Part shown: one piece after another, positions 42,992-46,779 of the stretch | Numbering within the stretch: the first letter of the stretch is position 1 | Layout: each line of letters starts with the position of its first letter | NCBI RefSeq assembly: GCF_009749465.1 | Contig: NZ_WBIS01000001.1 | Span: 248,001-312,000, forward strand | Length of the DNA: 64,000 nucleotides | Direction: 5' to 3' | Source of the DNA: Agromyces terreus | Lineage (GTDB): Bacteria; Actinomycetota; Actinomycetes; Actinomycetales; Microbacteriaceae | Program-made: the position numbers and the translations under genes | Notes under the pieces: model-generated | The model's input: only the letters and a program-made list of their open reading frames with translations | The model's database searches: none | Told to the model about the DNA's origin: nothing

Positions 42992-43016
42992 GCGGGAGTG
43001 CGGGAGGGCTCCCGCC
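42991..43016 (+). terminator. hairpin terminator after hisS
   Basis: GGCGGGAG (42991-42998) pairs with CTCCCGCC (43009-43016); a shorter alternative CGGGAG/CTCCCG is nested inside. It starts at the last base of the hisS stop codon and is followed by pyrimidine-rich sequence. Confidence 0.55.
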
Positions 43017-43020
43017 TTCC

Positions 43021-43064
43021 CGTCTTCCCGCGCTCCCGTCTTCCCGCGCTCCCGTCTTCCCGCC
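43021..43064. repeat. 16-bp tandem repeat
   Basis: CGTCTTCCCGCGCTCC twice in full and once in part, in the non-coding space between the hisS terminator and the first 60-bp hairpin. Pyrimidine-rich on the plus strand. Confidence 0.85.
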
Positions 43065-43071
43065 CCGAAGA

Positions 43072-43131
43072 CGTGATCCGTCGATCTTCGCCCTTCCGCG
43101 CACGGCATCGGGCGAAGATCGACGGATCACG
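43072..43131. repeat. 60-bp perfect hairpin element, copy 1
   Basis: Two 22-base arms (43072-43093 and 43110-43131) are perfectly complementary around a 16-base loop. The same arms recur at 44347-44406 with a different loop that shares its last five bases (GCATC). It lies upstream of the DUF559 gene. It could be a mobile palindromic unit or a processed RNA hairpin. Confidence 0.8.
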
Positions 43132-43208
43132 AATCGATGGGTCGACCGGAGGCGGCAGGCCTGTGGAGAGTCGGAGCGGCTGTGCCGTGCGTCGCGCACG
43201 ATGTGTGC

Positions 43209-44204
43209 ATGCCGCGTCGTGTCCCGATTCCCCCGCACCTGCGCGGATCCGCGTTCAGATCCGCCGATCGCGGGGCGCACGGTCTTGGCGCGAAGCGGTT
43301 GAGATCCGCCGACGTGTCGCACCCGTTCACCGCGGTCAGCGGGGTCGGGCTCGATCTCGACTCGATCCGCGGGGTGTGTCTCGCGTACGAGCCGCTGCTC
43401 AGGCCGGGAGAGGCGTTCAGTCATGCCACGGCGGCCCGCCTGCACGGTTTGCCGCTCCCGCCCGACCTGCCGTTGCGCCCGCTGCACCTGTTGGCGCCGC
43501 CCGACATGGCGCGGGCCCGCACCGCGGGGGTGGTCGGCCACGAGTCCGCGACACCGTTCGTCTCGTGGCTCGAGTCGGGCCTCCCCGTGGCGAGCCCGGT
43601 GCTCGCGTGGTGCCAACTCGCGGCATCCCTCGAGGTCGCCGATCTCGTCGCGGTCGGCGATGCCCTCGTCACCGGCCGGAGGAACGGACGGCATCGTGTG
43701 CAGGCCCTGGCGACGATCGACGAACTGCGGGCCGCGGTGCGGGCCTGGGGTCGCCGCCGCGGCGCTCGCAGGCTCGCGGAGGCCCTGCCGCAGGTGCGCG
43801 TCGGCCCCGAGTCGCGTCCCGAGACGCTGCTGCGCCTGGTACTCGTTCGCAGTGGGCTGCCCGAGCCCGAGATCGCCCTGCCGGTCGTGGTCGGAGAGGC
43901 CCACGAGGTGCTGCATCCCGATCTGGCGTATCCCGATTGGCGCGTCGCGATCGAGTACGAGGGCGAGCATCATCGGGATCGAGCGCGGTGGAAGCGCGAC
44001 ATCACCCGCCGCGAGCGTTTCGAGGCTTCGGGATGGCGCGTCATTCGCGTGACGTCCGATGATCTGTTCGGTGATCCTGACGCGATGGTGGAACGAGTAC
44101 GGCGCGTGGTCGCCCTGCAGACCGCGGGCGTGGGGATCGCGGGCGTGGGGATCGCGGGCGTGGAGGGAGCGACGCCCGCCGACCAGGCGAAACGGCCTGC
44201 GTGA
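43209..44204 (+). CDS. DUF559/Vsr-like endonuclease-domain protein
   Basis: A 331-residue protein. The C-terminal third is a DUF559-type restriction-endonuclease-like fold: HPDLAYPDWRVAIEYEGEHHRDRARW (about 236-261) followed by RRERFEASGWRVIRVTSDDLF matches the Vsr/PD-(D/E)xK pattern. The N-terminal two thirds resemble the AbiEi-like/unknown region often joined to it in Microbacteriaceae. The last residues are AGVGI repeats from a 15-bp tandem repeat. ATG 43209 is chosen; an in-frame ATG at 43137 would abut the hairpin. It stands alone between two identical hairpins; target and role unknown. Confidence 0.8.
   Translation: MPRRVPIPPHLRGSAFRSADRGAHGLGAKRLRSADVSHPFTAVSGVGLDLDSIRGVCLAYEPLLRPGEAFSHATAARLHGLPLPPDLPLRPLHLLAPPDMARARTAGVVGHESATPFVSWLESGLPVASPVLAWCQLAASLEVADLVAVGDALVTGRRNGRHRVQALATIDELRAAVRAWGRRRGARRLAEALPQVRVGPESRPETLLRLVLVRSGLPEPEIALPVVVGEAHEVLHPDLAYPDWRVAIEYEGEHHRDRARWKRDITRRERFEASGWRVIRVTSDDLFGDPDAMVERVRRVVALQTAGVGIAGVGIAGVEGATPADQAKRPA
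44124..44168 (+). repeat. 15-bp tandem repeat at 3' coding end
   Basis: GCGGGCGTGGGGATC twice and a degenerate third copy, coding for AGVGI units near the C-terminus of the DUF559 protein. Confidence 0.8.
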
Positions 44205-44346
44205 TGGGGCGGGTTGGGCCTGCGGGGTGGGTGGGTCCTGCGGGGTGGGTTGGGCCTGCGGGGTCGGGCCTGCGTGGTGGGTTGGGCGTCGGGGGGGGGG
44301 GGGGGGTGGGGCGGGGGGGGGGGGGCGTGCGTGGTGGGTTGGGCGT
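44195..44346 (+). repeat. degenerate G-rich tandem repeats with poly-G runs
   Basis: Units of about 18 bp built on CCTGCGGGGTGGGTTGGG run from the last codons of the DUF559 gene through the intergenic space. They end in a 16-G run (44291-44306) and a 13-G run (44313-44325). Many G-triplets on one strand make G-quadruplex formation likely, and run lengths are prone to slippage and sequencing error. This is most of the only gene-free stretch above 300 bp (44205-44576); the rest holds hairpin copy 2 and the eno promoter. Confidence 0.8.
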
Positions 44347-44406
44347 CGTGATCCGTCGATCTTCGCCCTGGGCGAGCGAGCATCGGGCGAAGATCGACGG
44401 ATCACG
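44347..44406. repeat. 60-bp perfect hairpin element, copy 2
   Basis: Arms 44347-44368 and 44385-44406 are identical to those of copy 1 and perfectly paired; the loop TGGGCGAGCGAGCATC differs from copy 1. It lies downstream of the DUF559 gene and 107 bp before eno, in the same orientation as copy 1. Confidence 0.8.
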
Positions 44407-44501
44407 AACCCAGGACACTCGGACGGGCAGGGGTGCGGCGCGCGGCCCGTGCAACCGTCGGGAGGTCGCGCGCGGCATCCTACTCGCGACGCAATGTGTG
44501 A

Positions 44502-45954: not shown

Positions 45955-46779
45955 ATGAGCAGGGATGCTTCGCGTGCGCGCCGTCCGGCCGACCCGACGA
46001 AGGCGCCCAGGAAGCCCGCGAAGCCGGCCTCCGAGCCCGCCGCGTCGAAGGCCCCCGCGTCGAAGTCCTCCGCGTCGAAGTCCTCCGCGTCGAAGTCTCC
46101 CGCGTCGACGTCCTCGGCGTCGAAGCGGCCCGCGGCTTCGACGACGTCGGCATCGAACGCGTCCTCGGCGACGAAACGTCCGTCCTCCGCGAAGAATGCA
46201 GCCGCGGCGAAGTCGACGACGACGCCGAAGCCCGGCTCCGCCGCGCCGAAGTCGACCACGACGCCGAAGCCCGCGTCCGCCGCGAAGCCCGCGCGTGCGC
46301 GGGGCACGGCGTCGGGGTCGGGCGGCGCACGCCCGCCGCGCCGACCGGGTCAGGCGCCCTCGGGATGGCTCGGCGGCATCCGATTCTCAGGTTTCTCGCT
46401 CATCATGATGGGCGTCCTCGTGCTCGCGGTCGTGGTGCTCGCACCGACGATCGCGTCGTTGGCCGAGCAGCGGCAGCAGATCGCGGCGCTGCGGGCCGAC
46501 GTCTCGGCGCAGGAGTCCGAGGTGCAGCGCCTGCGCGACGAGCGCGAGCGCTGGAACGACGAGACCTTCATCATGACCCAGGCGCGCGAGCGGCTGACCT
46601 ACGTGATGCCGGGCGAGGTGAGCTACCTCGTGATCGACGACCGCGCCGAGACCGCCAAGACGGATGCCGCGACCGAGGTCTCCGCAGACGTGACCGAATC
46701 GAAGGGGGACTGGATGAGCACCATCCTCTCCTCCGTGCTGACCGCGGGACTCGCGCCCGCCGCTGGAGAGACCCCATGA
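45955..46779 (+). CDS. divIC: septum formation initiator family protein (FtsB/DivIC)
   Basis: A 274-residue bitopic membrane protein of the divisome. The first 140 residues are an extraordinary Ser/Lys/Ala/Pro-rich cytosolic tail built in part from six 15-bp repeats (ASKSS type). One membrane helix (about 150-170) is followed by a coiled coil (RQQIAALRADVSAQESEVQRLRDERERW) and the YVMPGEVSYLV end typical of actinobacterial DivIC. The FtsB homologues of most bacteria are near 100 residues, so the tail is the odd part. Its stop overlaps the DUF501 start. Confidence 0.9.
   Translation: MSRDASRARRPADPTKAPRKPAKPASEPAASKAPASKSSASKSSASKSPASTSSASKRPAASTTSASNASSATKRPSSAKNAAAAKSTTTPKPGSAAPKSTTTPKPASAAKPARARGTASGSGGARPPRRPGQAPSGWLGGIRFSGFSLIMMGVLVLAVVVLAPTIASLAEQRQQIAALRADVSAQESEVQRLRDERERWNDETFIMTQARERLTYVMPGEVSYLVIDDRAETAKTDAATEVSADVTESKGDWMSTILSSVLTAGLAPAAGETP
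46042..46131 (+). repeat. six 15-bp coding repeats in divIC
   Basis: Six consecutive units of the form GCGTCGAAGTCCTCC, with variants, encode ASK-xx pentapeptides in the cytosolic tail. Confidence 0.85.

Follow-up and report, generated by a model that had tools for sequence, protein, structure and literature searches.

Why does a single nuclease-like gene between hisS and eno of Agromyces terreus lie between two hairpins built from the same arm, and do gene and hairpins belong together? The locus lies in a stretch of 64,000 nucleotides (the window; positions 248,001 to 312,000 of contig NZ_WBIS01000001.1, assembly GCF_009749465.1), and its parts are as follows.

43072-43131, no strand assigned: left hairpin, with 22-nt arms at 43072-43093 and 43110-43131 and a 16-nt loop at 43094-43109
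43209-44204, plus strand: gene for a predicted AbiEi-like and Vsr/homing-endonuclease-type protein (Pfam MTES_1575/DUF559); the longest open reading frame runs from 43137, and homologues align from 43209
44346-44407, no strand assigned: right hairpin, with 23-nt arms at 44346-44368 and 44385-44407 and a 16-nt loop at 44369-44384

Our answer, which we hold to be probable, is that these parts form a palindrome-enzyme module resembling that of the repetitive extragenic palindromes (REPs) and their REP-associated tyrosine transposases (RAYTs), in which an unrelated enzyme would recognise the arms and spread or maintain the hairpins. A first-pass annotation of the window had proposed a palindromic mobile unit or nuclease-hairpin module of this kind, with a different enzyme, and that proposal is now supported by empty sites in relatives, bracketing of many other family members, and dispersal of the arm.

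The arms are 100% complementary in both hairpins, and the same 22-nt sequence occupies all four arm positions; the two loops are unrelated. The annotation had spoken of two identical perfect hairpins, which is correct for the arms but not for the loops. Allowing up to 3 mismatches, the window has 4 occurrences of a 19-nt core of the arm versus a mean of 0.11 in shuffled sequence, where at least 4 were seen in 0/100 shuffles, and the folding z-scores of the hairpins are -7.1 and -8.3. The tandem repeats reported around the module were located at 43010-43065 and 44206-44350. The first is an array of 8/16-base units, TCCCGTCT, immediately 5' of the left hairpin; the second is G-rich with long G runs and follows a 15-base repeat at 44120-44163. 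This 15-base repeat lengthens the nuclease reading frame (GVGIAGVGIAG), an extension missing in the five other proteins of our alignment (A1).

The presence of one DUF559-type gene between the hairpins was also borne out: open reading frame 43137-44204, with its likely start at ATG 43209 by comparison with homologues, matches MTES_1575 (8e-9, just under that profile's cut-off) and DUF559 (3e-5, above that profile's cut-off). In the model of the protein, an AbiEi-like N-terminal domain is followed by a C-terminal Vsr/homing-endonuclease domain, the latter with the predicted Vsr/EDxHD catalytic fold and its conserved acidic and histidine residues; H255 and D264 are conserved. A search of solved-structure profiles gave no match, NCBIfam gave nothing meaningful, and Foldseek by itself returned no match below 0.001. 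The nearest protein homologues come from loci mostly named Agromyces.

Is bracketing a property of this locus or of the gene family? Loci were chosen by protein alone, the best 80 of 246 confirmed, mostly from Microbacteriaceae; four of them had short flanks and were left out, leaving 76. Our bracketing score tolerates mismatches and requires left/right flank similarity in both orientations, with a threshold of 14; it was chosen after a locus with clear hairpins (L160) had scored low with exact matching. Same-arm bracketing was found at 44/76 homologues versus 9/1000 mixed-locus left/right pairs and 2/572 shifted windows, and an exact-word variant of the statistic gave 31/76 versus 3/400 and 2/429. 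Predicted neighbour genes of the same 80 loci provide a fairer control, and here bracketing was seen for 0/155 non-adjacent and 1/144 adjacent genes. With 21 more loci the count rises to 60/97, a few near-duplicates among them. In a class-wide draw, 69/79 genomes carry a match to the nuclease family (up to 18 each, fragments counted), and 17 of 28 loci are bracketed versus 2/500 controls (29 had been retrieved besides the window's own, one of which was dropped). The annotation had proposed testing whether the hairpins flank other DUF559 genes; same-arm hairpins do so at many family members, with arms that differ by subfamily. Median arm length is 22.5 nt over 78 strong hairpins; among those listed, no shared head such as GTAG or GT(A/G)G was noticed by eye, and CGAG/TCGA at the stem base is frequent, not universal.

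Two side observations belong here. At L152, in a Curtobacterium, the gene adjoining the nuclease gene is itself bracketed by same-arm hairpins (score 36.5), and perhaps a larger unit is present. Among class-wide loci (L270, L271, L275, L276, L279, L281, and L294), several arms have a common TGATCAT-like or GATCATG-like core, the remainder being different.

Each bracketed gene tends to keep its own arm. Several genomes hold multiple bracketed homologues, each with a different arm (three in G010, three in G008, and two in G002, where a third is unbracketed), and same-site orthologues with <65% protein identity mostly have different arms. There are 98 such same-site pairs, and in 43 both members are bracketed; within-locus left/right likeness exceeded that of any between-locus flank in 42 of these 43, with one tie, so divergence of the protein is accompanied by joint change of the left and right hairpins. 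For same-site pairs with ≥65% identity, within-locus likeness was higher in 1/8, the opposite held in six, and one was a tie. Arms shared across different neighbourhoods are rare (48/4910 pairs at a score of at least 14), and the Spearman correlation there is weak (0.10).

Where else do the arms occur? The window arm forms nine hairpins in the 3.7-Mb host genome, the two bracketing ones of the window included, and a few stems are mismatched. Mean identity among the nine is 94% for arms, 42% for loops (the eight of equal length), and 34% for the 30 bases outside; the loop is 16 nt long in eight and 17 nt in one. The two inverted arms and the distance between them are conserved; the loop is not. 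Several dispersed copies lie between convergent gene ends, and two lie in frame within longer open reading frames, HutI (C5) and an FAD-type oxidase (C21); names of flanking genes were assigned by eye from sequence. The idea that all dispersed copies are tied directly to nuclease-family genes was rejected, as only 2/9 host hairpins adjoin such a gene. The annotation had named two observations that together would count against it: arms elsewhere without the gene are indeed found, and presence of the gene in all relatives proved false. By analogy with REPs, the 7/9 hairpins remote from the gene look as dispersed copies of such an element would be expected to look.

Allowing 1 mismatch, the window arm is present in 12/60 genomes, host included, and forms hairpins in G008, G025, and G027; its matches in other relatives comprise nine loci, all within predicted open reading frames and with no partner arm seen. 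For three arms from other loci, matches with at most 3 mismatches were counted. The L136 arm has 17 matches in its own genome versus 0-1 in each of 13 others. The L141 arm has 52 versus 1-7 in 13 others, where a backwards control also totals 1-7 per genome; its exact matches are only the four arms of its two bracketing hairpins, and most others are 2-3 changes away. The L271 arm has 121 matches in G126 (7.2 Mb), or about 60 hairpins if all are paired, with 21 and 13 in two congeneric genomes and 0-3 in 11 others. Within its own genome each of the four arms is dispersed, and in other genomes the counts are mostly near chance. The window arm, counted genome-wide and in relatives as the annotation had proposed, is mostly restricted to related lineages.

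The hisS-eno site itself differs between relatives. HisS was used to search 36 genomes, and 23 Agromyces, host included, were examined. The nuclease gene follows hisS in six (G000, G007, G008, G009, G010, and G012; the G010 locus as retrieved stops short of eno), and it is absent in 16, where the hisS-eno gap measures 96-240 bp. These 16 gaps are the empty sites that the annotation had proposed looking for, and they hold no inverted repeat of at least 12 pairs except one of 13 pairs in G017. G015 has a gap of 1206 bp and no nuclease gene. The same arm stands on both sides in 5/6 gene-bearing genomes and varies by species (the G007 left copy was read by eye); in G009 the right hairpin alone is clear. 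The G007 and G012 gene copies appear decayed, their matches being split across frames. A. salentinus (G027, named by its identity with L097) encodes a 69% identical protein whose arm is of the window's family. At the second homologue in the host (C6:9452), three imperfect hairpins in tandem precede the gene and one follows it, with another, short arm (GAGTYGCCC); they were recognised mainly by eye, the automatic bracketing statistic having missed them. It was also observed that, between loci of two Agromyces genomes (L099 and L101), the nuclease gene is oppositely oriented against the same neighbouring DNA, as would follow from an inversion of the bracketed unit.

Hairpins within coding genes can be compared directly with orthologues. 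In an 18-genome alignment of HutI, 5/18 linkers carry an in-frame hairpin, and the linker segment measures 336-393 bases in these versus 234-306 in the other thirteen, where a scan picked up no more than four repeats, all with short loops and of 12-14 pairs (G003, G013, G014, and G017). Three of the five hairpins have arms of the window family (that of G025 degenerate, by eye), G012 has the arm that brackets its own hisS-eno gene, and G002 has a G007-type arm, which means that three arm families entered one tolerant site. This imidazolonepropionase linker (L177, L178, L179, L181, and L182) is a hot spot for in-frame hairpins. For AnmK, an in-frame hairpin is present in G027 and in none of five others read (G000, G009, G013, G018, and G032); the AnmK motif was not found in G022. 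Rickettsia palindromic elements are likewise small palindromes in frame within coding genes, and HutI and AnmK share with them an in-frame palindrome that orthologues lack; the hosts are unrelated, and we know of no enzyme gene associated with the Rickettsia elements.

How might such a module work? A mechanism compatible with the bracketing and the pairing of arm and gene, with four dispersed arms, with presence and absence between relatives, and with the predicted domain architecture would begin with a two-part unit, the nuclease gene and two bracketing copies of its family-specific palindrome. The AbiEi-like domain, a relative of a known inverted-repeat-binding protein, would be fused to the Vsr/homing-endonuclease domain, and the protein, most likely as a dimer, would bind a pair of inverted arms whose spacing is fixed. 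It would then nick or cut at the hairpin or at the target, and repair would copy hairpins into new sites and keep the arms alike. The loop sequence would be irrelevant and free to drift. Hairpins would thereby spread as small non-autonomous elements, mostly intergenic and sometimes in frame within genes.

It is important to set out what weighs against this. That the protein binds and cuts the arms is something we infer. The 42/43 result is restricted to pairs already bracketed, and 32/76 homologues fall below the bracketing threshold; these may partly have lost, diverged from, or never had hairpins. Across neighbourhoods, arm similarity is high only above 70% protein identity (2/2), with 1/13 at 60-70%. 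The variant copies of the L141 arm may belong to another gene of the same genome. G025 has several GATCCG-arm hairpins, yet no nuclease-family gene flanked by that arm was found there; hairpins can thus persist without the gene and outlive it. Finally, the HutI and AnmK linkers are too variable to place the insertion ends, and neither an exact junction nor a duplicated target was recovered.

Four other explanations must be considered alongside a mobile palindrome-enzyme module. The one that survives best, although we consider it unlikely, is that the hairpins are operators, with the AbiEi-like domain acting through them as a repressor of its own gene and perhaps of a regulon, while the nuclease domain has some other role. 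The predicted N-terminal domain is in keeping with this, passages of PMC3985639 describe AbiEi as binding two inverted repeats and repressing its own promoter, and in most of the bracketed loci listed a hairpin is found upstream of the gene. A second same-arm hairpin downstream of the gene is harder to accommodate, and the dozens of arm copies per genome, several at convergent gene ends or in frame within genes, are poor operator positions.

A restriction-like, addiction, or defence system, in which DNA comes under attack by the nuclease while the hairpins serve to mark the host genome, to protect it, or to signal its state, is less probable again. The predicted Vsr-like fold, the weak matches of PADLOC AbiEi models to the family (best 7e-6), and the up to 18 family matches per genome are consistent with it, and a paper dealing with proteins of conflict and defence (PMC3710099) names the MTES_1575 restriction endonuclease (REase) domain, as a Vsr REase, for a HEPN protein. 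There, the same Pfam domain belongs to a very long multidomain protein, and here to a short two-domain protein with hairpins. Hairpins within coding genes and patchy presence at single sites suit mobility better, and the window gene has hisS and eno as neighbours.

We give slightly less credence to another enzyme moving the hairpins, with the nuclease gene often riding along and itself moving between two of them. Mobilisation by the nuclease is our own reading of the pattern, and REPs of the CGTC type, some of them inside genes, are reported without a dedicated transposase (PMC3733652). Arm and gene are paired across families, however, with several families per genome and each arm with its own gene. 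A Y1 transposase as mobiliser was rejected: a search for Y1_Tnp (PF01797), the only transposase type sought, gave 0 matches in the host genome versus positive results in 5/14 control genomes. Ordinary bidirectional terminators or chance palindromes are very improbable: several copies do lie between convergent genes and the stems are strong, but no T run adjoins either hairpin on either strand, a scan accepting only loops of 3-8 (hence blind to 16-nt loops) found no terminator, arms are species-specific and shared across the gene, some copies are in frame within genes, and the neighbour-gene controls are nearly empty.

How does the module compare with known systems? Passages of PMC2817692 place the REP/RAYT enzyme gene between two inverted REPs and describe apparent enzyme-repeat co-evolution. 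Together with those of PMC3733652, they give REP/RAYT units (REPtrons) a palindrome-flanked enzyme gene, hairpins that are also dispersed, and several families per genome, all of which recur here. Unlike our predicted AbiEi-Vsr-type nuclease, RAYTs are Y1/HUH tyrosine transposases, and REPs have a GTAG-type head and shorter arms. Membership of REP/RAYT was rejected, since the host genome lacks the Y1 transposase that defines such modules and the enzyme is of another fold. EDxHD homing endonucleases such as I-Bth0305I differ in that the present gene has an extra AbiEi-like domain, is intergenic rather than intronic, and comes with separate dispersed hairpins; AbiE type IV toxin-antitoxin systems differ from the solitary window gene and its C-terminal nuclease domain.

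No earlier link between the MTES_1575/DUF559 family and palindromic repeats was found in the open-access literature, which was the scope of our search, nor did the searched terms reveal one in the available parts of PMC2267715, PMC13155455, and PMC3710099. The first of these catalogues repeated stem-loop families of mycobacteria and a corynebacterium, which were left out of our arm comparison. We regard the module as new in its enzyme and host group, with an organisational idea that it has in common with REPtrons. On balance, and a little less firmly than for the module itself, we favour a wider claim: that these are class-wide, previously undescribed actinobacterial mobile palindromes, spread by a nuclease of the homing type in which the AbiEi-like domain serves as reader, and an independently evolved analogue of REP/RAYT with many co-evolved enzyme-arm pairs whose specificity could be read from genomes. 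This would suggest what a common gene family of unexplained function may do, and would supply REP-like palindromes, whose origin and spread remain to be explained, with a second and independent type of enzyme. Every bracketed gene brings the arm that goes with it, which makes a large number of natural enzyme-target pairs open to prediction and testing.

Beyond the module, a further 15-base tandem repeat occupies 46040-46125, within open reading frame 45955-46779.
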